A stretch of 64,000 nt of DNA from Rugalucina vietnamica (lineage: Eukaryota; Mollusca; Bivalvia; Lucinida; Lucinidae), in contig OZ024871.1 in assembly GCA_964017185.1 (NCBI GenBank), positions 65,104,866-65,168,865 on the forward strand. The letters are read 5' to 3'. The translations under genes were made by a program, and so were the position numbers. How positions within the stretch are numbered: the stretch's first letter is position 1; each line of letters starts with the position of its first letter. Under the pieces are notes generated by a model, which saw only the letters and a list, made by a program, of their open reading frames with translations, did not search any database and was not told the DNA's origin. Shown here piece by piece: positions 8,186 to 51,043 of the stretch.

Positions 8186-9475
8186 TCAAAAAGGCATATG
8201 CGCCTTCGTCGGCCCCTTATAATTCCGGTTAATGTCCGCTTGTTGCTTCACTTCTTGCTCACTCCTTGGATAAGGCCGACTTAAATTATCCCTTTTCAGA
8301 GTCACACCAAATCCTGGACGATCTGGCAGGTCAATGAAACCAGTCGCAGGCAGTGGCTCGTCCGTGAAGATGCCTCCGAAATATGGCACTATTTGGTCTG
8401 AGTTCGGACTGAGGTTGATGTACTCAGCAAGTGGGCAGTTGGTAAAGGCGTACTGTAGGTGATAGGAGTACACGCTCGACCCGTGTGGTATAACTAGGGT
8501 ATCATGGGCCGCCGCTAACGCAACAACACGCCTAGCTTCCGTGATACCACCGAGCCATGTGATGTCCGGTTGTATAATATCCACGCACCGTGAATTTAAC
8601 AGCTGTTTGTAACCATATCGGTTGTACTCGTGTTCTCCGGTTGTCAGCAGAACCTTACATCCGCGGAGGTTTTCCCGTACCTCTTTATACCCCTCGTAGT
8701 CATCCGGCGGTAAGAACTCTTCCATCCATTTTAGACCGTACGGTTCCAACTCCTTCGCCAGCCGCGTGGCATACGGCACGGTCAGTGCCATATAACAATC
8801 CAACATTAGCGGAAAATCGTCTCCAACCTTTTCCCTCCAAGATTTGTAGAACTCGACGTTCTTTCTTAGTCCCTCGTCCCCTGCGGAAGGCCCATACGGA
8901 CAGGGGACTTTTCCTCCGACGAAACCGAATTTCTTCGCGTTATCTGGTCTAGATGAGGTCATATACACTGGTAAACGTTCTTTAGTCTTCCCACCAAGAA
9001 GAGCATAGACGGGTTCGTTTCTCAATTTTCCCAGTAAATCCCACAACGCGAGATCCACCGCGCTGATCGCCTGTACCGGCAATCCTTTTCGGCCATAGTT
9101 TATCGTTGCCCTGAACATCTGGTCATACATCAGTTCAATATTCCTAGGATCCTGTCCCTCAACGAACCGACTGAGATGTTTCTCCACGATGAAGCATCCC
9201 GGAGCACCACCGATGGTAACCCCAACGCCACACGTCCCGTCGTCCGCCTCCACTTCCACGACCAGAGTCCCTATCGCGTTGATGCCCCACGATTTCCGAA
9301 ATGGCTGATAAAGTTCATACATTGACATCGGGTTGGCGACAGGGTTGGGGTAGCCATTTATCCAGTGTTTGTCGTCCGTATCATGGCAGTCGGCACCTTG
9401 GTCCCCAGGGACAGCCTGAGGGACGTAGGCTCGTACCTCCTTAATCCGAGGGAAATTGCGCACACCACCAGACAT
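8186..9475 (-). CDS. L-rhamnonate dehydratase-like enolase-superfamily enzyme (intronless)
   Basis: The 429-aa product matches the L-rhamnonate dehydratase (RhmD) family along its whole length, from memory of that family; bacterial enzymes are about 400 aa. Such enzymes dehydrate L-rhamnonate (or a related aldonate) to the 2-keto-3-deoxy acid using Mg2+. Visible residues sit where RhmD has them: metal ligands D226 (LMLDCYM), E252 (KWMEEFLPP) and E281 (TTGEHEYN), the D304 (QPDITWLGG)/H331 (IPHGSSVYSYH) catalytic pair, H31 and R60 in the N-terminal capping domain, and LVVEVEADDGTCG and CFIVEKHL. A charged tail of about 30 residues follows the barrel. The reading frame stays open upstream but has no ATG before 9484; ATGs at 9484 and 9475 are three codons apart and 9475 precedes SGGVRNFPRIKEVRAY, where homology begins. 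It is a single exon, more GC-rich than its surroundings, between two multi-exon dehydrogenases. Bacterial or fungal transfer, or a retrocopy, could explain this. Confidence 0.93.
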   Translation of the reverse strand: MSGGVRNFPRIKEVRAYVPQAVPGDQGADCHDTDDKHWINGYPNPVANPMSMYELYQPFRKSWGINAIGTLVVEVEADDGTCGVGVTIGGAPGCFIVEKHLSRFVEGQDPRNIELMYDQMFRATINYGRKGLPVQAISAVDLALWDLLGKLRNEPVYALLGGKTKERLPVYMTSSRPDNAKKFGFVGGKVPCPYGPSAGDEGLRKNVEFYKSWREKVGDDFPLMLDCYMALTVPYATRLAKELEPYGLKWMEEFLPPDDYEGYKEVRENLRGCKVLLTTGEHEYNRYGYKQLLNSRCVDIIQPDITWLGGITEARRVVALAAAHDTLVIPHGSSVYSYHLQYAFTNCPLAEYINLSPNSDQIVPYFGGIFTDEPLPATGFIDLPDRPGFGVTLKRDNLSRPYPRSEQEVKQQADINRNYKGPTKAHMPF

Positions 9476-9543
9476 CCTGATCATAATAAATAAGCGTATG
9501 TAGCAAATGAAATTCCTTATTGTACGTCTTGAGCCACACTGCG

Positions 9544-9555
9544 TTACAAAAGCAT
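9544..9555 (-). other. Three-codon upstream ORF ahead of the dehydratase
   Basis: On the minus strand ATG CTT TTG TAA lies between the predicted transcription start and the ATGs at 9484/9475. It would be in the 5' leader if transcription starts about 30 bases past the TATA box at 9593-9600. It could dampen translation; function is inferred only. Confidence 0.4.
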
Positions 9556-9592
9556 TGCGGCCACCTCCGCACAAGAAGCATGGCCAGACACT

Positions 9593-9600
9593 CTTATATA
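9593..9600 (-). promoter_or_regulatory. TATA box of the rhamnonate dehydratase gene
   Basis: The minus strand reads CCTATATAAGAG about 120 bases upstream of the start codon, giving a predicted start near 9567 and a leader of about 90 bases. That the gene has its own TATA promoter fits an expressed gene rather than a dead retrocopy. Confidence 0.55.
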
Positions 9601-9699
9601 GGCATCTAATAAATTTGATTAGAGTCTAGAATATACGCATGAAGAAAGTGAACGTCTTTAATTTTTCCTGGGTACGTGGCGAATGCGGCCGCCTATGCT

Positions 9700-11426
9700 A
9701 ATCTGAGTAGTTCCTGGTACATTGTGTTTTGTTTCGTACAGGTTTTATAAAGCGATGCTCCCTTATCATTTGAACCACATCAAAATAAAATGCAACACAT
9801 GACAATGAATAAAAAGGGAACCGTGTCATTAGTCTTAGTCGCCATTGTCGGTACAGTAGTAGCAAAAACCTGAACAAAACACTTGCATGTTCAGGACACA
9901 CTGATGACTTGCATCGGACTTGCATGATGGCACTTTTAATTAGGCTCTGCAAAGTCGAAAGAGCCACTCTGCTAGTTTTGTGGCGAAACTACCCAGCTAA
10001 TTTATTCCTTAAGGTGCTTAAGGTGACTGATGCCATAATTTCAAAGATAACCTCCCAATGACACTCAGATAAGTCTGGCCGAACTGACTTCGTCCATACA
10101 AAGTAGTGAAAGTACTAATTTATGCATGTCATGCGTATTTGCAATTGAACGTTTTTCCTCAATTTACCAGATACTCGTTTGCAGTATATGTTCTTTTTGT
10201 ATCCCAGTTCCCCCATTTCGGTTGTTGACGTAAGGAGTAAAATTCTTGTGTGCCACTTCCTTGTGTGCTCACCTTTCAAATTAATCACGTACCAGTAAGT
10301 CGCCACCGTATGGCACACGTCATGCGTTTTTCTTGCGATATAATTTTGAACAGACTTCAACTCCTTCAGTTTGACCTTTCAGATCCGTCAGATCATTGTT
10401 TGAGTAAATACGCCGGAGGTGTTTCTATCATACAGTCGCAAACTCCATAGACTTCAATGTAATTTCACGTTTACCAGAAAAAATATCCTGCCTCTCCAGG
10501 TCAACAGATTTTCATTATTTAGTGTCATTTGAAAGGTAAATGACTAAAAGCTATACATAAGATTTTTGACTCTTCATTTTTTCAAATAGAGCTACAACAC
10601 TTTAAAACTGTAGGAAATTTTGAAAAAAAAAAAAAAAAAAAAAAAAATTCCCATTGACGTTAATGGTGACGTTGCCAAAACATCTCACATTTTCTTTAAA
10701 TGATTGCAGCCTTGAAACACATAGAATTGAATGAAAATATCGTGTTTATTGCTTTAGTTATTTACTATTCAAATGACACCAAAATCATGAATTGAAAATA
10801 CATTGAAGTCTATGGAGATTCTGACGCTGTGGACGTCAATTTGGCACATAACTGGCATAGCACATTTCTGGCAGACCGAATACGCGTCCCATAGTTACAG
10901 CACGTCGTGGCTACTGGCTAGAGCCAGTTCAAAACCATGCCCATATCAGAATTCTGGAACAGTCTTATATCGTTTTCGTTCACATCTTGCACTTCCTCCG
11001 CTATTCTCCCAAATAGTAAGACGGCTTTTCCTCTCAGCTCATTTGGTACATATCTAAAGAAAGCACCAGTGCGCAAGTGAATGGCCCCATGATGCTACCG
11101 AATTGCTGGTGTATCCAGCACAAGCAGTCAGTCTAACCATGTAAAATATGGCATTTGCGGTTGATTGTGCACTATGACACAAAGAATTGTGATGAGAATA
11201 TACGACATATATGCAATCATATTGACAAACTGATTATGGATAATCATGTATCCATTGCAGTACTAGACCTGCATACACATGTGTAAATACCACAACAGTG
11301 TAAAGGTTATCGCATTACAACATCTTGATAATAAAAGCGATTCAGACTGACCGACATACCGACATGTCATGAGTATTGATAAAGTTGTTGCAGATGTTAG
11401 TTCAATAAATATAGCGTTCAATAAAA
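9700..11426. other. Divergent intergenic region between dehydratase and dehydrogenase copy 2
   Basis: No gene is visible. It holds the shared upstream region of two divergently transcribed genes and a diverged palindromic element at 10434-10830. An A run lies at about 10625-10647. No TATA box is clear upstream of 11427. Confidence 0.6.
10434..10830. mobile_element. Diverged palindromic MITE in the divergent promoter region
   Basis: The ends read CAGTCGCA then ACTCCATAGACTTCAATGTA at the left, and TACATTGAAGTCTATGGAGA then CTGACGCTG at the right, the reverse complement. Inner segments also pair (TAGTGTCATTTGAA with TTCAAATGACACC), so most of the ~400 bp is one diverged palindrome. No transposase is present. 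Confidence 0.7.
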
Positions 11427-13269
11427 ATGGCGACACAAGCTATACAGAAGACAATGAAAGCGCTAATCAAGCGCACTGAAGCGGAATCTTATGAGTATAT
11501 TGACATTCCGGTACCAGAACCAGAAGGAGACGAAGTGTTAATCAAGGTGGACGCAGTTTCTATTTGCGGATCCGATATCGCGTTGTACCGATGGAACGAA
11601 GTGGCGCGTGTTATCGCGACGGTACCCTTTATTCCTGGTCACGAGAGCGCCGGAACTGTGGTAAAATGTGGACCCGATGCTACAGTACCGGTAGGGACAA
11701 AAGTCGGAGTAGAGAACCATTTTTATTGTGGAAATTGTTACCAATGTAAAAATGACTTGCGGGAAATTTGTACCAACATGGGACAGTATGGGCATGGGCG
11801 GAAAACAATGCATGGTGGATGTTCCGAGTATTCTATAGTGTCGTCGAAGTACCTATATACCATCACTAAAGATCTCAGTAAGTGTACTAATCAGCTTGAA
11901 AATTGTTGCTGCAATGCACCATGAGTTTTGCGCGTTGTAATTGCACAATGTTACGTTCTTTAGCATGCTTTATCATGGGGCTGTTGAATATGTTGCAAAT
12001 ACACAGATTTGTGTATACATGGTTGTGAAATGAGTGGTCACCTCAAAGCAAGTGAGTCATTTTTCGTGGGAGCCATTTTTCTTAGCTTTTTGAAAAAATA
12101 AACCAGATTTTTCGATGTAGTCATTGACTTTAATCATATAAGAACCTGAAACAAAAGGCATGTCATCTTACAGCAAACTGTAAGCGCACACGAGCCGCCC
12201 CAAGTTACCCACTTTGAGAATTTTCCAGAAAAACATGTTTACACTAACTTTTCCCAGAGAAATACATTTCCATGACCCCAAAATAATCCTTGATTTTTCA
12301 TATTATGTATCCTAGACGTGTAGGCTTTGCGTAAGTTTTATTTATATGCAAAGGAAATGGGTCCCACGAAAACCACTTACATTTCCAATTCTAAACCAAG
12401 CTATTTAAAATTTTAAAAGAATAACTATATTGAGTCATTCCTAGTACCTGTGACGTCTATTAGCAATAAATGCACATCATCATTTGATTTACAGATTAAA
12501 AAAACAACAGTAGATGTCTGTTTAACATACCCCACCCACTTATGTCAATATTGATAAAGTCTTAAGGTTCACAATAATATTTCCTGTTTGTTTAAATCTG
12601 CTTATAAAGTAAGAGCCATAAGATGTCGCACATATAGATGTGATGCAGAAATGAAACGATTAATATAAGATATAACTCGCAATGTCTGTACATAAAATGT
12701 CTAAATGATGCGGTTATATGAATTTCTATATGATGTAGGTAATGTTTTCTTTTAATAGATGCTGAAGAGATAACAATGTTAGAGCCTCTTGGTGTAGCTC
12801 ACAATGGTGTTGAGAGATTAGAGGTGCAGGGTGAGGATGTTCTAGTCATAGGCTGTGGTCCTGTTGGACTCCTGGCACAGAGATTGGCTAAGGTCATGGG
12901 CGCAAAACGGTCAGTATTGTTCATGATCAGAATTATATATGTTCATGGGCTTCTAAAAATTTCACTAAAAAGGCTGTCGGTGTTTCAATATCTTTTTATG
13001 CGTTTCAAAATAAACTGTTGTGTATCACACATGAATGATACTTGATTCGGAGGAGGGACATACTAAAATATGTACATGGTTTTGTTTCTTTACAGCGTTA
13101 TAGGGGCTGATGTCGAACAATGGAAACTAGATTTAGCACAGAAATTAGGAACTGATCTTGTGATCAACGTAAAAGAGCAAGACATCAAACAGGTAATCTG
13201 GCTATAAGTTAAGAATATTTTGAGGAGATCTTGCAGTCCATTGCTTCAATGCAGTGACCGTAAAGAAAC

Positions 13270-17978: not shown

Positions 17979-18616
17979 TTTTTGTTTTTTAATATTTAAA
18001 TGAAAGTCTATGAAAAGCTTAAAAATATTGATATTCACAAATAAAGCAATGGTAAATATGAATTTTGATAACACGAAATGTACAACAGACATATGTACAC
18101 ATGTATATACGTTGTTTATGCTTATTATATATTTAATACATATTACCTCCAGCCGAGATATATAATGGAATCGTTTCCTTCAGCATTATGTAATTTATTC
18201 ACTGTTCAGAATATTACTGATGATTTATTATATTATTTTAGGAAATCTGTTTAGAAATTTGATTTATCTGTCTGCACACTGAGCAGCTAAACTATGTAGA
18301 CGTTTAACAAAATAAATCTAAGAAATTATCTTAAGTCTCTTGAACTGTTTGCCTGTGGAGTATACATAAATACGTCTACTATGTTCTTTAAATAATATCC
18401 TGTCAGTTAAGTCGCTGCATCAGTGATTGTTATAGCTCATATAGTATATTTTGATTATTATCCAACTGAAAAAAGTTTTGTTTATTGTCTTTTTTCAATG
18501 TCTGTGTGTTTGGTTTTTGGCAGCAACTGTTTGAGACGATGCTAATAGCAGATATTTTCCAGCAAACCTGGAAATAAAAGTAAAACTGAGTCCCTTTAAG
18601 AGCTTTGAAAGGGGAT

Positions 18617-18660
18617 GGGCCATACTGCGGTTTCGATTATTCAAACCATATCAGTGACCG
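18617..18660 (-). ncRNA. Decayed hammerhead ribozyme motif
   Basis: Read on the minus strand this matches the intact motif at 24095-24138 along its length and in its flanks (CTCCATGTTGCCAGATTTAT before, CATCCCCTTT after). Helix I still pairs over five positions and helix II over four, but two core bases of CTGATGA have changed (CTGATAT) and helix III has a mismatch. It should be inactive. The shared flanks show both belong to one dispersed element. Confidence 0.65.
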
Positions 18661-21600
18661 TATAAATCTGGCAACATGGAGCCAGAGAAAATAACTGCAC
18701 TTTTGAAAATTTCAACTTGGATGTCAAGCTGAGTCAACACATTGACGGGTAAATCTAAATAGAGCCTAATATGTTTAGAAAAGTGTATCTAAACTGTTGA
18801 TGAAATACTGATTTCTCAGAAAACCCTCAATGATCTCAAAGGACCAAAAGGAAAATATAACCTGGAAGTCTGTGACTACCTCGGAAAAAGTTGCTTAACA
18901 ACTTTATTTGGAGGCAAGTGACAGAAAACAACAACAAAAACGTATAAAACAGATAAACATATTTGATTGCCTACCGCTAGACTATTTGACGATCTTATCA
19001 TATCTAGGAAATCAAACTAATGTCTATGAATCAGATATTATCAAGTCCGAAGTGGTTTCAGAATTATCTCCCTGTGATTTCCAGGTGATTAGGTGCCAAT
19101 GTGGCTATTGTTGTTAGTCTAACGCTGTAAGTTTTAAGTGTTTCGACGTCGAGACTTGAAATATAAACTTTGTAGTTCCAGGAAACTGCCGAAAAGTCGT
19201 TGTTATAATAATCAGTACCATTGCACTGAACATACAGGTATCATCTTTGATTAAAGTAGGGTTTGCCCTTTTTTGTCTTATTTTCTACTTCAGCAGTACT
19301 GCCGCACTAATAGGTATACTAGTATGTCCCGAAATATAATAAAATTAAATTTTATTAACCATTCCAAATATTCAACGTTATGATTCATCTGCCCCTTGTT
19401 TTATATGAATATCGGTAGTGTTCAATCAAGTGAAAACTCATACAATGGCATTTACACTCCTTAAATTTCGTTTAAATTGTTTACAAAATATCTGTAGTGC
19501 TTGATTTTAAAATATGATACTGCCATCAGTATCACAGCCTATGAGGGTTAAACTCAGATTTGGTGATTTGTACATTAGTAAATAACAATGATTCCGATCG
19601 ATACTATTTCGAACACGAAGCTGTGGACCTGGTGGTGGCGACTTCCCTGGGATTCATTCCTGGTGCTATTTGATTCCCTCTGGGCCTATTTGTCCTGCGG
19701 TCATGGACCTTGTAGCTTGTAGGTCCCCTGTTAGACCTCAGTGGTGGAAGTATACTATACTTTATATTTGTTCGTCTCGATTTTCATATAAACATTGAAT
19801 GCAACTCCTGCTGACCCAGTCGTATATTTCATTAGATACTTTGAGTTGTTCATGTGTGACTGTATCGGCGCATGCATATCACTCGCCATTTAATTATTTA
19901 TCGCATGTGTCTAGGGAAAGGGCTTGGTCTATCTTTGGATACTTAATTTCGTTTTGTTCATCTGCGAAGCCACATGCGTTCTACAGTGCGAATTTAGTCG
20001 ATCAATATTCAAGTGTGGTAGTCTGCAAGCATTGGCTGCTATGTGGTCAAATGCGCTGTCATCTACTTTTCTAGATTCTAGTGCAGGATGTCCTTTATGT
20101 CCTATCGGCTGCATGAACGGTTACAAGTTTTAGAAACAAATATGCTTTTTTCCTAACGGTGTAATCCTTCTCAGTGATTTACTACATATTGCATATCCTA
20201 TATCCTGCTTATACATGTAGTATGCCAGTGCGCTCCACCGCGGTAGCTTGGCTGGCAGTATATTTTATGCCGTGTTCTTGACGTTGTTGTTATGTTCATC
20301 TATATAAGCTTGGCATTCTACTATACGGTTTTCCTGTCGTAAAGTGTCTGTTTAATCTGTCGTCAGTCCCTTCTTGTTAAATGTGTTTGATTCTCGGTCC
20401 AATTACACTAATCTCTGTTGTACCGGCCATATATGCGTCGTGTAATGTTTGTGATAATTTCCAAAATTAAAAGTAGAATTGAAGTAGGTATATAATCTCA
20501 TTGCTCGTTAAAGCTCTATTGTTGTATGGCATAAGACACTGTTAAACTGATTGGTCGAATAGCATTTTCGGCTAATCGTCACCGCCAGTTGCTTTAAAAT
20601 TGTTATCAATCCTTGTTGTTTCTTCTACATGGTCTATAGGTCGCATGGACACTATTTGCTTTAGCTGTTCCAATGTTCATATGCAACTCTTCGTGTTAGT
20701 ATAATGCCTGTTTGAGAAAAGAAACAGAACATTATTTGAGTGTTTGTGATAGTTGTTTTAAATGCAGCGGCAATATACTCAAGTCTGACACTATATTCTG
20801 CATGCTCATAAATTAATGTAACATCGTTAACATCTACATTTGACAATCATACGTAATACACACTTATGGCAAGCATTAAATATAAGATTAACCATAAGAT
20901 ACTTCTACGGTCAGTCTTGATCATAAGATAAGATATGCCTTTTGAAACGGCATGCTGCATCTATTTGAACGCAGCACTCTCTGGACATTTGAAGCAATTA
21001 AATATAACAATGTATGGATCATCATTATTTTATAAGCAAAAAGTTGCAAATCAGCATGCTTTTCGTTGAAAGTGTTTAAATATTAGCTTCGTTTGAGGAA
21101 GACAATGTTTGTTCTAATGTTGCAAACAAATACCTGTATCCGCTATGTGTTACAATGTTTATGAACTTGAATTTCTTTATAATAACAATATAGTGCAAAT
21201 TCAACTGTAGTAATTTGGGAGTCAATAAAAGTTGTTTCAAATGTTTGGCCACCTGTGCAATCCCGCTTCTCTTACACCGGCTCTGACTGGGAAAATACTA
21301 GGTGAATAGAATATAACTCTGGATTAAACTCGACACAGGTGTTGAAAGTTTTATTGAATAAACGTATCTTAATATAATTATATGTTTGTTTGGGCTATCG
21401 TTTTTATGGGTTTTATTCTTTCGTTAGGTAGTTGACAAATGCAGGTTACCCGATATACAACTGAATGGATGGAAAAAAAGTCACCAACGCATTACGTGGT
21501 TTCACCTCGCAGTTGTCTTTTTAGAGGTCTCTAGTGTAAAATTAGTAATTGCCCCATAAAATTGGTGGTTGCTGTTTTTGGTTAAGAAAGTAGCGAATAA

Positions 21601-22901: not shown

Positions 22902-25900
22902 ATGACGCGGGCTCGGACATATCGTATAAAATTTTCGTATAAAAACTTCAACGTTTGTTTAATATTTATTTTACTTATGATGGATTGCCTTCCCCCGGGT
23001 TATGGTGCTCGGACAGCCAAGGCGGGAAAAGCGGAGAAAGAACAAACAGAAGCGATTGAAAGACTGTCGCGAGTGTTTGGAATTGACCATGTCCCGGAGC
23101 ATGAATTTAGTAAAGCACCTCCACAGTTTATGCTGGAACTTTTCAAAGATATCACTGATGTTGGAGGGTTGATAAGGAAGAAAGGGCCATACAATGCCTC
23201 AACGGTTGTTAGCTTCCCAGACAGGGGTGAGTACGTTGGTAATATCAGATAGATGTTTGCCTTAAAGAGCTATCGTCTAACAAAGTACAAATACTCATAA
23301 ATACGTATTGGCATTTGCATACATTAATTTAGTGTAGGTGTTTAATGCTATATAAATTAAGAATTAATTTATTAATCTTAAAATCGCACTCAAATAAAGG
23401 CTCATGGAAATACCCATCATAGTGCTTAGAATTCTACGACGTTCTGTTGTGAAGCAAACAAGTTTAAGTGATTACAATGTTATTTTGGATCGCTGAACAA
23501 CAACTGAACATATATCTATACAGTATACATAAGATGGGAACTTTTATGCATGCACTGATTTTTAAAAACGTGAATCCAACAAGAATATAAGATAACTAAA
23601 TTGCGAAAAGTATTTGCACTGCTTTAAAACGTATCAAAGGGCACTTTATATCCATTTAACCGGCTTTGTTAAAATAAAATCTAGGGCGATTAAACTGAGC
23701 AAGGAACAACAACCAAAGCACACAGCGTTGTAGTGTGTGGTGCAGAGAAAATCTAATTTTTGGAAATCATATTATCCTCCGAATCAAAATAAATCCAAAG
23801 AGCTGTATATAAAGTCGTTTTAAAACTGTTAATTGCGCCGGTGGAATCTGCTATATTGCAATTCTTTGAATGATGCTTAAAATGATTACAAGCTCGAATT
23901 ATTTTAAAGCAGATGCATAAACTTTAGATTACCATGGGCTTATAACTGATTCCATTATCTATTTAACAAAATGTAGCATATTAAAGCATTTGTATAAGTC
24001 ACGTTTGTCTATTTGCTTGTCCGTGTATTGACAGCCCAGATAAAATTCGTAAAATTGCAGTTACTGTCTCTGGCTCCATGTTGCCAGATTTATAGGGTCA
24101 CTGATGAGGCTTGAGTAGCCGAAACCGCGGTATGGCCCATCCCCTTTCTCATTAATGTTATCTCTGCTCTCGAAGGAACTCAGTTTTACTTTTTATTTAT
24201 TTTGTTTAGTTATTTATTTAGTCTGCAAAGTTTGAAAATACGGAATTTTCGCTGCACATTAATATCACTGATTGCATCTCGTTTTGCATAGCGCATTATG
24301 TTGTGCTTTAAAAGAAATATATCTTGTGCTTGATTGCACCTTCTTACGTTTTCGATTTCTGTTTTACAGCTGTCTATATTTCCTTTTGCTTACTTCAAAA
24401 GGTGACCGTGTACAGGTATAAACGGTATCATTTGACATATAATAAGCTTCTCGTTCACTTTCTAAAAAGTAACAATATAAACTTTGATCCTTAACTGTAA
24501 CTTGTTTAAGTCCTAATTTAAGTTTAAATCTATAATTAAACAGTAAAAGTTAAGATACAACAAACGTGAAACGTGCTTCTTCTGCCAGTAAGTCGCCGAT
24601 TCGTATATTCAGCGGTGATCACATGAAATCTGAAAAAAAAGTACAAAATCAACCATTAAGAATACATTAGACAATTATTTAGAAGCTAAGTACACATGCA
24701 TTCACAACACACCAACATGGATCAGACAGTGTGGATTTATTGAAAAATAATACATGCAAGATGCATTACTCTTATATTGTCAAAAGCTTGCTTTTTCTGT
24801 GCTTGAACGTATTGTAAAACGCTTTGTAAAAACCTAATGAAGCAGCGGTTGAAACTATCACTTTTGTCGTTTTTCGCTATCAGATTCACAAGAGATTGCA
24901 TCTTATCTTAGGTGGGTCACGCAAGAAAATCGGATGGCACGAAACGAGTACATGGTGTCAAATGACAATTAAGATTTTCGTTCCTGAGGTTGCAGTTTTA
25001 AATGAACATTGTTGGGACAAAAGTTGGCGGAAGAAATTTTCTGACCATTGCATGCATCTCTTACTAAAGGCCTTGGAACATTTTCGCACTTTTCGAAACC
25101 CACGAAGTCATTAGACTTTTAAGCGGAGAAAGAACAAACCCATGACATTAGACTTTTTAAATCTGATGATAAGAAATTTTAACTCGTCTGTATCTTTGAA
25201 TTAGATACATGATGCAACAGACCAATCCACTCAAATACTATAAGAATATTACATGAGTGTCAGGGATGGATAGACAAATCTCTCCTGAGGGTCACTTTGG
25301 CATCACGAGGCTCGCCGAGTGTTGCCAAACTGTGACCCTTGTGACATATTTGTCTATCTGTACCTTACACGCATCTTGCATGCCTTAATGCGCCGACTCT
25401 TGATTTTCATTCATAACATTTTCGTTGAAAAAAAACAACACTGCAATTGCGTCCGCAATCTTGAAATAGAACATTCCTGACGTCGCCGTGACGTTTACGC
25501 TTAACGACGAAATTTTATGACGTAATTTTCAACCAGTGTTAAAAAGGAACATGTGCACGCAGGGTCAGACAACCAGGGATAGAAAAGAATTTCTACCCCT
25601 GATCAAAACCTTAGATAGACTGCTATTTTCTTGTCAGGTATAAGAATCTATTGTCTCGGTCATTTTACTTCGTTGTCTATCTCATCAACCATACCTCAAA
25701 AGGTTAGCTTCTCTTTCTTCTCGTTCTGTATCGTTTCATGTACTTATATTTAGTGGACCAGTGTTCGTACATGTATCTTGCATGTCTTCTCACTTCGTCG
25801 TGATGCTAGTGTTTGATATCAGACTTTGAATTCCGTACTTGCAAAGGCTAGCTTCTCTTTCTTCTTGTTTTGTATCTTTCCTTGTGATAATATCTGAAGG

Positions 25901-31900: not shown

Positions 31901-32926
31901 TCTCTGTTGTTTTTTCTAATAAATGAAGTCTTTCATACAATTTTCTTCTTAAGGTGTATCATATTTAGTGTTTTATATTTGCATTATTTTCAGCTTACAA
32001 TAAAGAGATGCATTTCTGGTACAACGTATCTACTATACATACCAGTGAGTCTTTGTTGGAGGCTGAGTTCCATGTGTTCAGAATGCACCCAAGGCCAAAT
32101 CACACACAATTCTTACAACCTGCAACAAGAAGATCTCATTTAATAGAGGTAAGCACAGATTAAAAAGTTTCCATTAGACTTTCGTAGACATTGGACAAAC
32201 CGGTAATATGTTGATACTATTAAAACAAGTAGGCGTTGTATTCTTATTTGAGTTGTCCCTTGCCTAATTGTCATATTTAGATATTCGAATAGTGTACAGT
32301 CAAATTTATTTTGCATTTGCAAAATCCGCATTAGAAAAAATGGTAATGGTCATATACGGAAGTGACTGTACCATAGACCCTACTAGAGGCATACTCTGTT
32401 GTCTATTCACATTCTTTGCAAATTCAATGCTTATCTTCAAACTATTTTCAGGTAAAAATATACCAGGTGACAAACCCAGACACGATGTACACCCCAGCTG
32501 GCAGAGAACTGATATCACAACAGAGGATTGGTACTCACCTCAGGGGATGGCTCGTGTTTAACGTGACAAAGGCAGTGAAGTCTTGGAAATACGGAGGAGC
32601 GCCAAATTATGGTAAGTTAGTGCTTACACAAGTACAGACAGGAAAAAGGCAATACATGAAATATAATTAAAATATAACAACACTCATGAAGATGAGATGC
32701 TCTTTTATTTGAAACAGAACTAACGTTTTAGACAAAACTTTTGATACTGATAATACTGGTAAATTAATGTTTAACAATAAATTAAGAGTGCGACCTAAAT
32801 TCTTAAAATTGTTGTAGTTGGTCTCAAATGGCACATAGTGTTTGCAGGATGAAAAAATGAAATTCTAAGCTAAATATGAATACAAACGATAACAGTTTAT
32901 TTTTATTCTCACAAATCTGTGTGTAA

Positions 32927-34633: not shown

Positions 34634-37600
34634 TTTTAATAATAATAATGTCTTTAATTAAAGAGGATAACATATTTAGCAAAATGCTGATCTCACACAT
34701 GGTCCTCTATGGAGTAAGGTTACATACAAATATATACATATTTACAACAGAAATGATGTCTGGGAGAATTAATCATATGTATGTACAAACGAGACCATTA
34801 GATTGTAATATAAAATGAAGTAAGATTTAAGACACTCAGTAAAGATACATACACAAACCATACATTTAATGAGGCAGTGATATTTAAACCTGCTTATTTA
34901 TTTTCAGGTTTCCTGGTTTCAAGTCAGACAGTATACGGGAGTGACTTGGGTGAGAGTACAGTGAGATTTGCTCAAAGAAAGGCACATCATGACAGTAAAC
35001 AGCCCATTCTTGTTATATACACGAATAACGGGGACCAAAGAACGCCAAATTTTATTTCACCACAAGACCAAGGTAATATTTTCAGTTCCCAAATACAAAT
35101 AATTAACATCAACGAGGAAACCAAAATTGAAATGAAGACAAGTAAGCTATGACCAGGGACTGACATCTTAATCATTAAAAAGCGAACGGGCGATAACTAA
35201 AGCAGCAAAAAAGAAATAAATAGTAAACCAAAGCAAAGGGAGCAACTATCATATCATATCATATCATATCATATCATATCATATCATATCATATCATATC
35301 ATATCATATCATATCATATCATATCATATCATATCATATCATATCATATCATATCATATCATATCATATCATATCATATCATATCATATCATATCATATC
35401 ATATCATATCATATCATATCATATCATATCATATCATATCATATCATATCATAAGCCGTGGCCTCCTAATTATGCTTCTACAATGTATCAGTTGGTTTTG
35501 ACTTACTGAAGATAGACGTCAAGCTAGGCATTTCTTCTTAACTGCTTAGCTAAGTAGAAATGCATAGTTTGACGTCTATCACCAGTAAGTCAAAACCAAC
35601 TATAACATTGAGGAGTTAGTAAAATAAAATACGAACCAAACAAATGATTTGTGAATTTTTCTGATCAATCTAAATATTGCTTCCTGGTTGTCTGTGTTTC
35701 ATGCTTACTTGGATAGTTATTAGGAAGAATACAAATTATTGTGGAACCTTAAAACGATCCCAGTAGGCAATAATGACTATTCTATTAACTAGATTTGGAA
35801 TACAAGACAGGCATGCACGTATCATACTGTGAGTCGGATCCATTTGAATACCCTCCGGAGATTGTATGGGGAGTCTAAAACCATTTTATATTCCTAGCTT
35901 ATAATGATAACGATGGCAATAATTCTTTCTGTAAATAACAAGGAAAGCACTAGTTCATTCAGTATTGAAGTTTCAGTTTATTAGCTAAATTTAAAATTAA
36001 ATTTGTGTTAAACTGTGTTCAAAGAAACAATCATAAAGGTAGCAGTAAAACTGCAATATACTCAGATATTTTCTTGGGAAGTTTTTCCTAGAGAATAGTC
36101 TTGTCTGCTTACGCTGAGCTAGAGCTTGGAAAAGCCTGACGTAGAGTGTATTTTATTTGTCCCAGTATGTCAATCAAATAATAATCAGACGTTATGGTTA
36201 ATAGCAAAACACTAAATAAGATGTCTGGTAGAATACGGCTTAGTCTGGCTGTGTCTGCAGATCAATAAAGATTAGTCATAGATTAAAAAAAAATAACTTC
36301 TTGAGACTGTTAGTGGTGTCGTGTACATTTCCGTGGAACAACAAATACCATTCTGTAAAATAAGCAATGAACTGGAACCAGCGGAAGTAGACAGAATCCC
36401 ATCCTAAACATCAGGGTGTGATATTCAACCAAAATAACAAAACATATACTGATACATAAAAATGTTTTTATTTTATTAACATTTCGACAGGCACCTTGCC
36501 CAATATATTTTAAAAACGTCTTTCATGCACGTTTAAAATCAAGGGCCAACATTTTATCATAGACTATGACAAAATTGTAAAATGTAAAGCTACCAGAAAT
36601 TGTAAAATGTAAAGCTACCAGAAATAGTTCAGGAAACATAGATCTGTATTGAAATTGAAATAAGTGACTTGGGTGAACAAAGTGCATTTTAAAAATGACT
36701 AAGGAACAAATTTCACACACATATATGGAAATTTTACTTGAGCTTTGACAAGAGTAAATATGTTCCATGTTACGGACAAAGCAATCATCAAGTTATGGAT
36801 TCTAGTACTACTATAGGCAAAGTCTTACATGTTTTCTATCTAGAAGGCGTTTAAGTAAAACCCTAGATTCAAAAATCAAATGGATCTGAAGTCCTCGTAT
36901 CCAGATAATTTGTTGAAGATGTTGTAATTGGCACAAATGGATGGAAACCCTGACGTCAGATTTTACCGCGAACTCGCTCAATTATGCTAATGACACAGAT
37001 GCTATCATGATATAATAGATTTATTTTCTTTATATGGCGCTAATATAGCTTGACATTGTGCAGTTCTAATGCAATGTTTGCCATTCTCCTAGAATGGGTG
37101 GAACATATATTATCTAATAAAAAATCTGACGTCCAAAATGATATATCACTGAACATATTATACTCTTCATCTATGAATTTATATGACACCATTTTAATTC
37201 AAGTAATGCAAGGTATTTCTGTATGATAATGTACCAACTCTTCAAAAACATGCATTTTGGTTGGTCCACAAAAGACGCCCGTGAAATATTAAGTTATTTT
37301 TTTCATCCATTTTCAGGCTATAAAGAAATTAAAAGAGATGCTCAAAGACAGGAAAGAAAGCAACAAAAGAAAAGTTACAATCATGCTGCATTGCAAAATG
37401 CGATAAGATTTTTAAACGAAAAAGACAGAGAAGAATATGATCATCCGTTTTTCCGCCGTCAAAATGCCGGTGCTTGGCACAGACAAAAACGAAGTACTTC
37501 TTTATCAGAGGAAACATTGTCCAACAGAAAACGGACTAAAAGAAGATCCAAAGGTCACAAGAAACGAGATAAGGGTAAAAGAGACACAAGTTATAGTAGA

Positions 37601-37924
37601 AACAGAAAAAGTTGTAGTAGAAGACAAATGTATGTTGACTTCGATGAAATTGGTTGGGCAGGGTGGATAATCTCGCCCAAAGGATATAACGCATATCATT
37701 GCAAAGGATCGTGTCCTTTCCCACTGGGACAAAGTCAAAAACCCACAAACCATGCAACTGTTCAAAGTATTGTGCATGCACTTCGGGTAGCTAAAGGTGT
37801 CTCAACGCCGTGCTGTGTACCTAATAAATTGTATTCCATAAGTTTGTTGTATTTCGATGATTCAGAAAATGTGATCTTAAAGCAATACGATGACATGGTT
37901 GCTGCGAGTTGCGGGTGTCACTAG
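22902..37924 (+). CDS. BMP-type TGF-beta family ligand precursor
   Basis: Five coding exons (22902-23226, 31994-32148, 32452-32611, 34908-35072, 37317-37924) join in phase to 1413 nt, 470 aa. A hydrophobic stretch (VCLIFILLMMDCL, about residues 18-30) is a signal peptide. The propeptide has LSRVFGIDHVPEHEFSKAPP, QFMLELFKDI, SLLEAEFHVFRM, GWLVFNVTKAVKSW and ILVIYTNNG, all typical of BMP prodomains, with several N-glycosylation sequons. A furin site RQKR ends at residue 327; 40 very basic residues follow. The knot domain (368-470) keeps all seven cysteines, including the CC pair used for dimerisation, and ends CGCH. DEIGWAGWIISPKGYNAYHC resembles ADMP, BMP2/4 and BMP3 groups, and KPTNHATVQSIVHALRVAKG is BMP3-like, so subfamily is unresolved. 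Secreted morphogen acting through BMP receptors by family. Intron 1 is 8.8 kb and repeat-rich. Confidence 0.95.
24095..24138 (+). ncRNA. Type I hammerhead self-cleaving ribozyme
   Basis: All core parts are present in order. Helix I: GGGTCA (24095-24100) pairs with TGGCCC (24133-24138), six pairs with one G-U. Core CTGATGA is at 24101-24107. Helix II: GGCT (24108-24111) and AGCC (24117-24120) with a five-base loop. Core GAAA is at 24121-24124. Helix III: ACC-GC-GGT (24124-24131) with a two-base loop, then A at 24132; predicted cleavage is after 24132. The very short helix III is the form known from Penelope-like elements and metazoan retrozymes. It is on the sense strand of the BMP-type gene's first intron; relatives at 18617-18660 and 56054-56099 show it moves with an element. 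Confidence 0.88.
25254..25376. mobile_element. Foldback/MITE with central hairpin
   Basis: GATAGACAAAT at the left pairs with ATTTGTCTATC at the right; inside, GAGGGTCAC/GTGACCCTT and TTTGGCA/TTGCCAAA pair around GGCTCGCCGAG. Outer GAGTGTCAGGG and CCTTACACGC extend the arms imperfectly. No coding sequence. Confidence 0.75.
25478..25530. promoter_or_regulatory. Small cluster of TGACG (CRE/ATF half-site) motifs
   Basis: CCTGACGTCG, CGTGACGTTT and ATGACGTAAT lie within about 50 bases. Such words also occur at 30185-30330, so they may belong to a dispersed repeat rather than an enhancer. Confidence 0.3.
25697..26008. repeat. ~148-bp tandem repeat, two copies plus a partial third
   Basis: Copies start with AAAAGGTTAGCTTCTCTTTC, AAAGGCTAGCTTCTCTTTC and AAAACCTAACTTCTCTTTC. 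Each contains TTCTTxTTxTGTATC, GGACCAGT and a CTTCGxCGT word. Copies are clearly diverged. Confidence 0.75.
27475..27822. repeat. ~86-bp minisatellite, four copies
   Basis: Units begin about 27475, 27566, 27653 and 27738, each with TCAAATAGAATTACAAG, CGCGCCAAACG, GxAAAGTCAA and TTGTTAAAACTCGAAGCTTT. The middle two are the most alike. Confidence 0.9.
28579..28955. repeat. Two short tandem duplications
   Basis: CATCTTCTAGAAGTCATGA occurs twice in a row at about 28582-28619. ATTATGGTACAACTGTTTGT occurs twice at about 28899-28946. The latter opens a frame of 79 codons that has no recognisable domain. Confidence 0.85.
30185..30330. promoter_or_regulatory. Dense TGACG motif cluster with E-box and GC-box
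   Basis: Within about 145 bases are CACGTG, GGGCGGGG, TGACGTCA, and TGACG in CAGTGACGTTA, GTTGACGTGACGTTGG, CATGACGTAAGG and TTTGACGTTTTG. This would suit CREB/ATF binding, in the first intron of the BMP-type gene. It directly precedes a foldback element, so the cluster may be part of a transposon. Confidence 0.4.
30436..30579. mobile_element. Near-perfect foldback element
   Basis: Arms of 60 and 61 nt (30436-30495 and 30519-30579) are exact reverse complements except for one extra base; they start ATTGAAATTCAGATTTTAGC. The loop has its own stem, GAAGCC/GGCTTC. Near-identity of the arms suggests a young insertion or ongoing gene conversion between arms. Confidence 0.9.
30640..31030 (+). repeat. 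Old interspersed repeat family R, plus-strand copy
   Basis: Shares an ordered set of words with 3765-4140 (opposite strand) and with the split copy around 43400-43482 and 52070-52190: GCTGCTCACTxxAC, GATATGTTxTCT, AGTACCT and TTCCTGACCATTGC. This uninterrupted copy shows what the target of the nested insertions looked like. Class unknown. Confidence 0.6.
31801..31836. repeat. (TACA)n microsatellite
   Basis: Nine CATA/TACA units lie 160 bases before coding exon 2 of the BMP-type gene. Confidence 0.95.
32612..34907. other. Intron 3 of the BMP-type gene: microsatellites only
   Basis: An AAAT run lies at 32926-32970 and an AAT run at 34599-34649. No further gene or well-defined transposon was seen in the 2.3 kb. 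The preceding intron 2 (32149-32451) is short and plain. Confidence 0.7.
35247..35452. repeat. (ATATC)n pentanucleotide microsatellite
   Basis: About 41 uninterrupted copies of a TATCA/ATATC unit lie 175 bases past exon 4 of the BMP-type gene. Uniformity suggests recent expansion and likely length variation between individuals. Confidence 0.97.
35487..35602. mobile_element. Foldback element next to the pentanucleotide repeat
   Basis: AGTTGGTTTTGACTTACTG at the left pairs with CAGTAAGTCAAAACCAACT at the right; AGATAGACGTCAA and TTGACGTCTATC, and GGCATTTCT/AGAAATGCA, extend the stem to about 45 bp with small bulges. No coding sequence. Confidence 0.85.
35603..37316. other. Remainder of intron 4 of the BMP-type gene
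   Basis: AT-rich with no gene. A 27-bp tandem duplication lies at about 36573-36626 (AATTGTAAAATGTAAAGCTA repeated). CGTCAGATTTT at about 36953 and AAATCTGACGTCC at about 37123 are inverted, perhaps ends of a small decayed element. Confidence 0.6.
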
Positions 37925-45960: not shown

Positions 45961-46051
45961 ATTGAAATTTCTTGTGCACCAAATTTATTTAAAATTCTAA
46001 AGTATCTTCACTGTTTGCTGTTTAAATAGCTAAAGCCAGCAAAAAGCAACC

Positions 46052-49000
46052 ATGTCATTCAAACTAAGTGACTTTATTGCTGCGCCTTCTCAGGAGCTGT
46101 TAGATAAGGCCAAAAAGAGTGACCTCTTAGACATAGCTGATCATTATGGGTTGTCAAATATCAAGACTTCCATGTTAAAACATGAAATTAAGAACATTTT
46201 GATTCAGTTTTTTGTTGACGAGGAAATTTTTGATTCCTCGGCTACTTCTCAGATTCTAGTCACTCAGACTGACTTGCAGTTGAGGGAACTAGAAATCAAA
46301 AGACAAATTGAGATGGAAAAACTAAAATTTGAGTATGAAGAAAGAATAAGGTTGGAAACTTTAGAACGGGATGAAAGAATAAGGGCAGAAAAGGCCGAAA
46401 GGGAAGAAAGAATAAGATTGGAAACTTTAGAACGGGAAGAAAGAATGCATAAACAAAAGTTAGAAATGGATAAACAAAAGTTAGAAATGGAAGAACGAGA
46501 GAAGGAAAAACAAAGAGAATTAGAACGAGAAAAAATTGAGTTAGAAAAAGAAAAATTAGAAAGAGAAGAAAGGCTTGAAATTGAAAAAGAAAAATTTAAA
46601 TTTGAAATTGAAGAAAAAGAAAGAGAAAGGCAATTTCAGTTACGAATGAAGGAAATTGAACTTAATGACAAATCAAAATCAAAATCTTTGCCTTTGGCTA
46701 CTAGTACAGTATTTGATGTCACAAAACACATTCGTCTCGTTCCTCCATTTCAAGAAAAAGAGGTTGACAAATATTTCTTACATTTTGAGAAGGTGGCAGA
46801 AAACTTGAAATGGCCAAGAGAGCACTGGACCTTGCTTTTGCAAAGTGTTGTAATTGGTAAAGCTCGAGAAATTTACACTCAGCTTTCTCTTGAGCAAAGC
46901 TCAGATTATGATACAGTAAAGGAATTCATTCTTAAGGCTTATGAGTTGGTCCCTGAGGCATACAGGCAGAAATTTAGAGACTGTAGAAAAGAACATGACC
47001 AGACTCATGTTGAGTTTGCTATAACAAAAGAGCAACTATTTGATAGATGGTGTTCTTCAAAGAAAGTAGGTTCTGATCATGCAAAGCTAAGGCAGCTCAT
47101 GCTTGTTGAAGAATTCAAACGGTGCATAAATTCTGATGTTAAGGCTTTCTTGAACGAAAGAGAAGTTGAAAACTTGGAAACAGCAGCACGTTTAGCTGAT
47201 GACTATGCTTTGACTCATAAGGCTTCATTTGTTAACAAGCCATATCCTAGGAAACCATATAACCCTCAATCAAAGCAAATTACCCCTCAGTCAAAACCAT
47301 ATTCCCTTCAGTCCGGTCCCAAAGCCTATCCCAGTAATCCAACTGACAATTCCAGTCCAAAACCCAAATTTTCTAGTGAAAACAAAGGACAAAATCCCTT
47401 ATCCCAGCCAATTTGTAATTATTGTAAGAAAACTGGCCACATTATTTCTGAATGTTTGGCACTGAAACGAAAGAAAGAAAGAGAAAATCTAGATAGTGCT
47501 AAACCGACAGGTCTCATCTCCTTAAAGGCTAAACCACAGTCTTGTATCCAGGAAGAAAACCCTATACTGACCAGAACTTGTAAAGAGTCAGTCTCTGAGG
47601 ATTCTATTATGGAGATTTATGAACCATTCTTATCAGATGGTTTTGTGTCACTTAACAGTGACTCTGCCCAGTCTACCCCTATCAAAATCTTACGAGATAC
47701 CGGAGCTTCTCAATCCCTTATCTTGGCAGATACCTTGCCATTTTCCGAGAAGTCTTCTTCTGGGACAAGTGTCCTTATCCAGGGCGTAGAGTGTGGATTT
47801 GTTAACGTACCGCTCCATAATATCTATTTGTCCTCAGACTTAGTTAAAGGTCCCGTGGCTGTAGGTATTAGACCTTCCTTACCATTTAAAGGTATTCATT
47901 TGCTGTTAGGCAATGATTTGGCAGGAGATAAGGTTGTGGTAAACCCACTTTTGACCAGCACACCATGTGTTGATCAACCGCCTGATCCCATTGAGCAGGA
48001 AATTCCTGACCTTTACCCTTCTTGTGCTGTCACTAGGGCAATGGCAAAGAAAGCCAAATTATATGATGGGATGCAAGACATAAATTTAACTGACACTTTG
48101 ATAGGTCAGTCCTTTAATAAAGAGATTTCAACATCTCTTTCCCCTAGTCAGTCTGATATTCAGACTGACCCTAGCAATCCAAGGTCGGGGTCAGAAAATG
48201 ACCTTTCACCCTCAACGTCAAATGATCAAGGTCATGACCAGATGTCAAGGTCACAGCTTTGTAAAGAACAACACAGTGATTCTGAGATCTCGCCTTTATT
48301 TGAAAGGGCTTTAGATGAAAAAGAAATATCCCAGGTCCCTGTTTGCTATTATGTCAAAAATGGCATATTAATGCGAAAATGGCGTCCTCCAGATGTCTCA
48401 GCAGAAGATGAGTGGACTGTTAACCACCAAATTGTGATCCCTAGGGTTTATCGCCCTGAAATCTTAAACTTGGCCCATGAAACTCCAATGTCAGGCCATT
48501 TAGGTGTAAATGTAACCTATCACAAGATCCTTAATCATTTCTACTGGCCAGGAATAAAATCTGATGTATCTCAACACTGCAAATCCTGCCACACTTGTCA
48601 GATGGTAGGAAAACCCAATCAGACTATTCCTAAAGCTCAGTTACAGCCCATTCCTGCCTTTGATGAACCTTTCAGCAGAGTGATTATTGATTGTGTAGGT
48701 CCCTTACCCAAAACAAAGAAAGGTTGTGAATATCTTCTGACCATAATGTGTGCTTCAACTCGCTTTCCTGAAGCTATCCCACTCAGAAATATCAAGGCTA
48801 AAACAATAGTTAATGCACTTGTGAAGTTCTTCACATTTGTAGGCCTCCCAAAATCTATCCAGTCAGATCAGGGCTCAAATTTTATGTCAGGAATTTTTCA
48901 GCAAGTTATGTACGAACTTGGAATTAAGCAATACAAGTCATCGGCTTACCACCCTGAAAGCCAAGGTGCCTTAGAAAGATTCCATCAAACTTTGAAAAAC

Positions 49001-51043
49001 ATGATCAGATCTTACTGCTTTGACACTGAAAAAGATTGGGATGAAGGCATACACTTGCTTCTATTTGCTGTAAGAGAATCTGTACAAGAGTCTCTGGGGT
49101 TCAGCCCATTTGAGCTTGTTTTTGGGCACACTGTACATGGACCGTTAAAACTTCTAAAAGAGAAATTTCTCTCAGATGATGACAGTTCTTTGAACTTACT
49201 TCAGTATGTGTCTGATTTCAAAAACAGACTATCAAAGGCCTGTGATGCAGCTCGGTCCAATCTCAAATCTGCTCAAAGCAAAATGAAGATTCGTTATGAT
49301 GAAAATGCTAAAGACAGAAATTTTGAACCTGGAGACTAGGTACTTGCTCTCTTGCCCGTTCCTGGCAGACCTTTACAAGCTAGATATTATGGCCCGTATA
49401 CTGTTGATAAAAAGTTAAGTGACGTGAATTACATTGTTAACACTCCTGGGAGGCGCAAGCAAAAACAGCTATGTCACATTAATATGCTCAAGAAGTATAT
49501 TGATAGGGATAGTTCTGTTATTTCATCAGTAAATATAGTTAATTCTGTCCCTCATGAACAAAATCAAATGGACTCTGAGGACTTCAACTTGGAGAAATCT
49601 GATCCCTCGTCATCGAAACTCCAGAATTCTGACATACTACAGAATCTTGATCAGAAACTGTCTCACCTTGATTCAGACAAAAGACTTGAACTGAAACAGT
49701 TAGTTCTCGAATATGAGCACTTATTTCCAGACATTCCATCCAGAACTGACAAAATTTATCATGATGTTGACATTATTGAAGGTTCAAAACCTGTAAAGCA
49801 ACATCCTTATAGAATGAACCCTGTAAAACAGCAATATCTCAGGGAAGAAGTTCAATATTTGCTGGACAATGATTTCATTGAACCCAGCCAAAGTGAATGG
49901 AGTTCTCCTTGTATTCTTGTACCAAAGCCAGATGGGACATTTAGAATGTGCACAGACTATCGAAAAGTCAATTCTGTCACTAAAACAGACACTTTTCCCA
50001 TCCCACGAATCGATGACTGCATTGATAATATTGGACATGCCAAGTATGTTACAAAGTTCGATCTGCTAAAGGGATTTTGGCAGATACCCCTCACGGACAG
50101 AGCAAAGGAGATCTCGGCATTTGTTACACCAGATGGACTGTACCAGTATAAAGTCATGCCATTTGGAATGAAGAACTCGCCTGCGACTTTTCAGCGGCTG
50201 GTCAACAGTTTGATTTCCAATCTGGATGGCTGTAAAGCCTATATCGACGAGGCTATTATCTTCAGTGAGGAGTGGCAACAACACTTGCAGACAATCAGAA
50301 CATTCTTTGACCGGCTAAGTGATGCTAAACTAACTGTGAACTTGGCAAAAAGTGAATTTTGCCATGCAAACTTGACATTTCTTGGACACATTGTAGGTCA
50401 AGGTCAGGTAAAACCTGTAGAAGCTAAAGTTGAGGCTATCTCAGATTTTCCTGTACCTACTAGCAAAAGACAACTGATGCGCTTTCTGGGTATGGCTGGA
50501 TATTACAGGAAATTCTGCAACAACTTCTCGGCTATAGCTGAGCCTCTGACAAACTTGCTTGGTAAGAAGGCCAAGTATGTTTGGACGGATGACTGCCAGA
50601 AGTCATTTGATAAGCTCAAGGCCATACTTAGAAGTGCTCCGGTTCTCTTAGCACCAAGTTTTGACAAAGAGTTCAAGTTGGCTGTAGATGCCAGTGATGT
50701 TGGTGCAGGCAGTGTATTGTTGCAAGAAGATGACAATGGTGTTGACCATCCTGTTTGTTATTTTTCCAAAAAGTTTAACAAGCATCAGAGAAATTACTCT
50801 ACCATAGAGAAAGAATGCCTATCTCTAATCCTTGCACTTCAGCACTTTGAAGTTTACTTAGCTTCTTCACATGCACCAATTGTTGTCTTCAGTGACCACA
50901 ATCCACTGACTTTCATACATAAAATGAAAAACAAGAACCAGCGTTTACTCAGGTGGAGTCTCATGTTGCAAGAGCACAATCTTGACATCAGACATATCCG
51001 AGGAAGAGATAATATCATTCCAGACACCCTAAGCAGAGCTTAA
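46052..51043 (+). other. gag-pol region of the Gmr1-like LTR element (fossil)
   Basis: Domains seen in order: a long charged coiled-coil with RLETLER-type repeats (about 46270-46680), gag core, a CCHC zinc knuckle (about 47412-47455), an aspartic protease DTGAS motif (about 47695), integrase with HHCC zinc finger and DDE-type core (about 48450-49200), then reverse transcriptase (about 49850-50430) and RNase H (about 50680-51020). Integrase before reverse transcriptase is the order of Ty1/copia, but the sequence character of the polymerase is Ty3/gypsy; this is the hallmark of Gmr1-like elements. The region is nearly intact, with about one or two breaks. Confidence 0.9.

Follow-up and report, generated by a model that had tools for sequence, protein, structure and literature searches.

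Because a complete hammerhead motif lies on the sense strand of an intron in a TGF-beta/BMP-type gene of the bivalve Rugalucina vietnamica, we questioned whether this ribozyme serves the gene that carries it or came to lie there by other means. The window, meaning the whole 64,000-nt stretch of DNA analysed, holds coding exon 1 of the gene at 22902-23226 (+), with boundaries inferred from ATG and GTGAGT and without a Pfam match, an open frame with exon 2 at 32377-32667 (+; TGFb_propeptide, 36.2 bits), and an open frame with the last exon at 37187-37924 (+; TGF_beta, 124 bits). With splice sites inferred in this way, the hammerhead is situated approximately 870 nt into intron 1. A sequence-only reading had placed it in this intron in the sense orientation, and the gene structure agrees: exon 1 lies 5′, the propeptide and TGF_beta exons lie 3′, and all are on the plus strand. 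Cutting of the host pre-mRNA at the hammerhead would therefore be possible in principle. Elsewhere in the window, an LTR-type retroelement (46034-51043, +) encodes integrase domains (H2C2, rve) before reverse transcriptase/RNase H, a domain order that we take to recall Gmr1-like gypsy elements, and has a stop at 49337-49339 separating two frames that share a register. Also present are long simple repeats of the GGTA/AGGT type, strongly skewed in GC (1755-2741), a long mandelate-racemase/enolase-like ORF (8186-9625, −) near an alcohol-dehydrogenase-like frame (11415-11924, +), and large tandem arrays at 59481-60740 and 61421-62630, with periods of 456 (2.8 copies) and 94/186/283.

The motif occupies 24095-24138 (+) and constitutes a type I hammerhead in which three helices, both core strands and a cleavage site were all found, exactly as the sequence-only reading had described. 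Helix I, which is open, pairs GGGUCA (24095-24100) with UGGCCC (24133-24138) through six pairs, one of them U-G. The core strand CUGAUGA lies at 24101-24107, the four pairs of helix II (GGCU/AGCC) lie within 24108-24120, and the GAA core strand is found at 24121-24123. Helix III (A-C-C/G-G-U within 24124-24131) has the minimal form that had been noticed earlier, with three pairs, including A15.1-U16.1, and a 2-nt loop, GC. The cleavage triplet is G-U-A, with A 24132 as H17 in keeping with the NUH requirement, and the motif predicts a cut after A 24132 (24132-24133), so that the 3′ product would begin at 24133, the position originally proposed. No equally good motif occurred in 100 first-order Markov windows scanned on both strands (14 loose motifs in total, one of medium quality), and in the real window one other place, at 18217, passes the loose motif test only.

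An earlier suggestion was that a covariance model should decide the matter, with the lack of a hit counting against a ribozyme. Formally, this is what happened: no Rfam family matched the 64-kb window at gathering score, and relaxed settings yielded near the motif, at best, a match to Hammerhead_3, a model of the wrong type, scoring 16.5 bits where 48.5 are required. However, Rfam also gave no match at E ≤ 1 on an intact young tandem of the repeat family to which the motif belongs, and the surroundings of a hammerhead in a Penelope-like element (PLE) of the same genome gave none either. As these intact relatives and the PLE hammerhead were missed too, Rfam is an insensitive test here, and we discarded it as an arbiter of ribozyme status. 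For 24085-24150, minimum-energy folding yields a competing structure (−17.2 kcal/mol, versus −12.3 kcal/mol when helices I and II are imposed). Conformations constrained to the hammerhead made up 1.6e-4 to 5.4e-4 of the ensemble over three stretches, helix III and tertiary contacts not being included in this figure. The folding z-score was −0.45, with 55 of 200 shuffles folding equally well or better, and a circular consensus monomer also showed (by eye) a competing structure at the hammerhead. A 2-nt loop lies outside what energy-based folding can score. Support for the hammerhead comes from the repeat family and from covariation, and folding energy is not supportive.

When the same genome (1.09 Gb, 47 contigs) was searched with a 161-nt query spanning the motif, 40 places out of 2,727 first-look candidates were scored, and the 39 beside the window copy were 90–97% identical. 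The part of the window homologous to the repeat is 188 bp long (24011-24198, +) and forms a 5′-truncated single unit (unit 187-374) that shares 94% identity with the family consensus. It differs from that consensus at 11 positions, none within the hammerhead, all 44 nt of which equal the consensus of subfamily A. The consensus itself is 374 nt long with a GC content of 0.393 and a longest ATG ORF of 36 aa. Whereas the window copy is one truncated unit, the tandem form is seen at other loci of the family, such as L017 (3.1 tandem units, period 374). Across the genome, the hammerhead pattern had 5,896 matches at ≤3 mismatches (2,871 + 3,025; reversed-pattern control 0), and subfamily C, which is younger and has another helix II, had 4,178 at ≤2 mismatches (2,094 + 2,084; control 0), two counts that may overlap slightly. 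The tail pattern had 6,515 matches at ≤3 mismatches (control 0), and the tandem junction in family A letters had 1,270, which is an undercount.

Two further copies lie in the window. An older one (18572-18864, −; 77% to consensus) has a broken core, the usual 3′ end and a 9-nt direct repeat in its flanks, TTCCAGGTT, two bases of which, at the 3′ side, belong to the element. A divergent family B copy (56006-56157, +; 68%) carries a second hammerhead motif at 56054-56099 (+), with four pairs and a UA loop in helix III and an A-C mismatch at the first pair of helix II. Of 50 copies found, a set of 47 leaves aside one deletion copy and two of family B, and 14 of these 47 pass a strict intactness test. 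Loci L001, L004, L010 and L027 were left out as overlapping duplicates. Retrozyme copies with near-identical flanks were seen at L082, L098, L105 and L108 and again at L102, L106, L107 and L109, and in each group an insertion was probably multiplied within a larger repeat.

We assessed covariation in two alignments of related sequences that had been chosen for their intact core. The first, A1, comprised 22 hammerheads (20 hand-picked from the 47-copy set plus two family B copies, with L024 one base out of register), and 92.3% of its pair cells were standard, compared with 11.9–46.8% when the pairing was slid. Changes on both sides affected seven cells in three pairs; none of 500 shuffles reached seven cells, and 65 reached three pairs. 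The second, A2, comprised 36 hammerheads from three subfamilies together with the hairpin just 5′ of helix I (UCUGGC/GCCAGA, 24069-24088, +), and drew on 36 of 42 sequences. Here 94.9% of the cells were standard (9.3–51.9% when slid), a percentage that is flattered because the search pattern could match only sequences in which the core is intact and helix I at least partly present. Doubly changed cells numbered 37 in four pairs, a cell count that none of 500 shuffles reached and that compares with 1–7 cells in slid versions, whereas 88 of 500 shuffles had at least as many doubly changed pairs and slide −1 had more (five pairs). The double changes affect two pairs of helix II, one of helix III and one of the upstream hairpin (C-G to U-A between subfamilies), and helix I showed one-sided changes only. 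Further pair types in A2 showed no excess over shuffles (500/500). RNAalifold on A2 recovered helix I and three of the four helix II pairs, with core bases paired and helix III not formed, and over 48 aligned copies mean conservation was slightly higher in the hammerhead (0.940) than elsewhere (0.904). From these alignments we infer that the ribozyme fold of the family is selected, with compensatory changes preserving it.

Were the hammerhead a functional intronic ribozyme of the BMP-type gene, cutting its pre-mRNA for regulation, its sense orientation inside intron 1 would be expected, as would the match of its 44 nt to the subfamily consensus despite 11 other differences in the 188 nt. However, 11 randomly placed differences would miss 44 of 188 nt approximately one time in 20, and because of this chance sparing the intactness of the hammerhead is weak evidence of selection. 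The hammerhead is moreover one of thousands of dispersed copies, and a competing structure is preferred in the isolated fold, so that we consider a regulatory role very unlikely. Amniotes have intronic hammerheads, HH9 and HH10, which likewise lie in host introns; unlike these, the hammerhead here is a copy of a dispersed repeat. The earlier view of the motif as a feature of the BMP-type gene accordingly gives way to one of a retrozyme copy that is a passenger in the intron, while its suggested link to retrozymes and PLEs was borne out.

We are highly confident that 24011-24198 represents the fossil of an inserted metazoan non-LTR retrozyme, i.e. a non-autonomous, non-coding element of approximately 374 nt with one type I hammerhead. 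The family has the short tandem units (150–450 bp) with a type I hammerhead that characterize such elements, no ORF, and a GC content below 50%; unit size, copy number, hammerhead type, low GC and the lack of an ORF all match. It thus belongs to an already known kind, of which it is a further member. For Mytilus galloprovincialis retrozymes, the published account gives ~5000 hammerhead copies, repeats of ~350–390 bp and abundant circular RNA (Cervera and de la Pena 2020, PMC7229834). Judged by this published description, the two are alike in type I hammerhead, unit size, thousands of copies and tandem repeats, as well as in GC under 50%, the apparent absence of an LTR and co-existing hammerhead PLEs (PMC7229834). 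They differ in that target-site duplications (TSDs) in the mussel are described in that account as over 4 bp "when present", whereas here a junction repeat of at least 8 nt was found in 2 of 36 insertions (0.03 expected). Plant LTR retrozymes are likewise non-autonomous and hammerhead-processed with circular RNA (circles being proposed here), but measure ~700 bp, with LTRs, PBS/PPT, a 4-bp TSD and a type III hammerhead, as opposed to ~374 bp and type I (PMC7229834, PMC7761336).

The ends of the insertions indicate how copies may have entered the genome. Most copies end 3′ at ...TTTTTATTT, i.e. at unit 374, which lies 66 nt 3′ of the cleavage site, and in the window copy this tail spans 24133-24198 (+), its end being the inferred starting point of reverse transcriptase (RT). 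The usual end was found in 32 of 45 chained matches (E ≤ 1e-10; some are parts of one array), 26 of them at unit 371-374 and six running 1–4 nt beyond; the other 13 end elsewhere. Among 40 intact tails on one chromosome, C1, 38 were followed by DNA without detectable retrozyme similarity, one by a next unit (L078) and one by an inverted unit (L090). These C1 insertions are 44–866 nt long, 37 of the 40 being shorter than one unit (44–347 nt), and their 5′ ends are scattered across the unit; twelve fall into four groups with common 3′ flanks and were not de-duplicated. A de-duplicated set of 67 usable insertions was obtained from 80 rows minus nine with a common 3′ flank, one over-long and three tandem. 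Both sets were chosen by an intact tail and are therefore alone no proof of a fixed 3′ end.

The cleavage site is crossed by 51 of the 67 insertions, so most templates would have been continuous across it, either as ligated circles or as uncut multimers. Of the other 16, ten stop clearly short of the site and six close to it, three of these exactly at it. Relative to an even spread, 5′ ends were in excess at the site (three exact versus 0.18; six within 5 nt versus 2.0; ten within 8 nt versus 3.0), although 5′ ends are denser near the tail in general and two exact cases, L134 and L138, are alike in start and flank. This excess is suggestive of run-off from cut linear RNA, which we do not claim; given that some 5′ ends lie at the cleavage site, cut linear RNA may also serve as template. 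In a second set, flank-to-flank direct repeats of at least 8 nt occurred in 2 of 40 insertions (0.92 expected), and TSDs are absent or irregular, with no general TSD. Inverted repeats of at least 8 nt in the flanks (7 of 36 versus 1.5 expected, in 45-nt flanks and post hoc) were dropped as a candidate feature, with 40 other insertions giving three versus 1.2 expected.

Tandem arrays were compared using 34 units in 13 arrays chosen for several junctions (11 from the junction list plus L017 and L029). Units differed by a median of 1.1% within arrays and 9.0% between arrays, and for 30 of the 34 the nearest neighbour lay in the same array (0 of 2,000 permutations as good). Arrays L062 and L071 are 0.3% apart, closer than some of their own units, while L017, L029 and L072 are old arrays; because these have diverged internally by 5–11%, the test rests on the young ones. 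In the ten young arrays, 40 of 62 within-array differences were private and 22 were common to other arrays, compared with 80 of 109 array-fixed differences that were common to other arrays (Fisher p = 1.9e-6). Near-identity of units at birth fits the expectation for several turns around one circle; later unequal exchange after insertion could also make the units of an array alike. If the whole family were satellite DNA spread by recombination at the DNA level, with the hammerhead incidental, unequal exchange would yield such near-identical tandem units too. However, the sub-unit length of 37 of the 40 C1 insertions and their scattered 5′ ends, the lack of a further unit in the same orientation after 39 of the 40 tails, and the compensatory changes that preserve the ribozyme fold speak against a satellite, which we regard as a highly improbable origin.

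For the retrozyme, the insertion pattern fits reverse transcription from a fixed internal site on RNA that would be continuous across the cleavage site, probably as circles. In the proposed cycle, tandem copies would be transcribed, the hammerhead would cut multimers to monomers (as the motif and its covariation suggest), and monomers would be ligated into circles, as reported for mussel retrozymes. An RT supplied in trans would then always begin at one internal position, 66 nt 3′ of the cleavage site, and copy a variable length, sometimes exceeding one turn. Such a cycle would account for the fixed 3′ end, the variable 5′ end and the near-identical tandem units that we observed as a pattern among the copies examined.

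The putative start site adjoins a conserved block. On the RNA, unit 1-82 follows immediately after the usual end at unit 374. Within it, single copies of families B and C are identical to the family A consensus, with 53–97% identity elsewhere in these two units. In six other copies that cover the block, its two halves are 82–100% identical; two more scarcely reach or match it. A hairpin predicted in the block was not significant (z = −1.17; 20 of 200 shuffles as good). The block may be where RT is loaded. We propose tentatively, with somewhat more doubt than belief, that an RT rolls around ligated hammerhead circles and thereby writes the arrays, starting at unit 374 beside this block, which would be its loading site, and that this enzyme works without regular TSDs or the (AT)n targeting of the genome's hammerhead PLEs.

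PLEs have been put forward as strong candidates for mobilising animal retrozymes (PMC7229834). In this genome, GIY-YIG elements gave 150 scored places among 451 candidates, some in tandem, and the one element tested carries RVT_1 and GIY-YIG in a single 964-aa frame, as expected of a PLE. Several of these elements have hammerheads whose helix III shows (by eye) the same three pairs and 2-nt loop. For a 201-nt PLE stretch, 40 of the 41 matches listed were 100% identical, and these copies are thus recent. Among 31 GIY-YIG loci, L057 alone contained a retrozyme-like copy as well. We considered and rejected a common retrozyme/PLE tail: three by three tails gave 0 of 9 comparisons under 5%, the best being equalled by 36 of 500 shuffles, and one PLE family matched over 12 nt of the tail with E = 0.64. 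Four PLE ends run into (AT)n, at ~11, ~48 and ~82 nt 3′ of the cleavage site, and those of L046, L049 and L059 suggest multiple start sites and insertion into (AT)n. A close analogy is offered by the anole PLE, in which RT starts internally and the genomic "tail" ends there (PMC11167929).

PLEs and Terminons, which carry a hammerhead in the pLTR, resemble the family in their minimal hammerhead and tandem arrangement (PMC11167929; PMC7761336), and in the internal RT start that leaves a tail at the genomic 3′ end (PMC11167929). They differ in that the retrozyme unit has no ORF, and hence none for RT or GIY-YIG, so that it does not qualify as a PLE, in the absence of (AT)n targeting and in a tail unlike those of three PLE families here. 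That the window copy is the remnant of a PLE, namely of its pLTR, is scarcely credible despite the shared helix III, tandem form and internal 3′ end, given a 374-nt unit repeated head to tail with no ORF within or between, a tail without significant similarity to three PLE tails, and flanks of only ~65% AT (33 insertions) where four PLE copies run into (AT)n.

A hammerhead family with thousands of copies can escape Rfam, and "no covariance hit" must therefore not be taken to mean "no ribozyme". Titles and opening lines of abstracts, mostly of non-subscription papers, on retrozyme insertion and on bivalve and oyster hammerheads do not describe the insertion pattern found here. The insertion pattern together with the 82-nt block makes it directly testable how animal retrozymes return to DNA.
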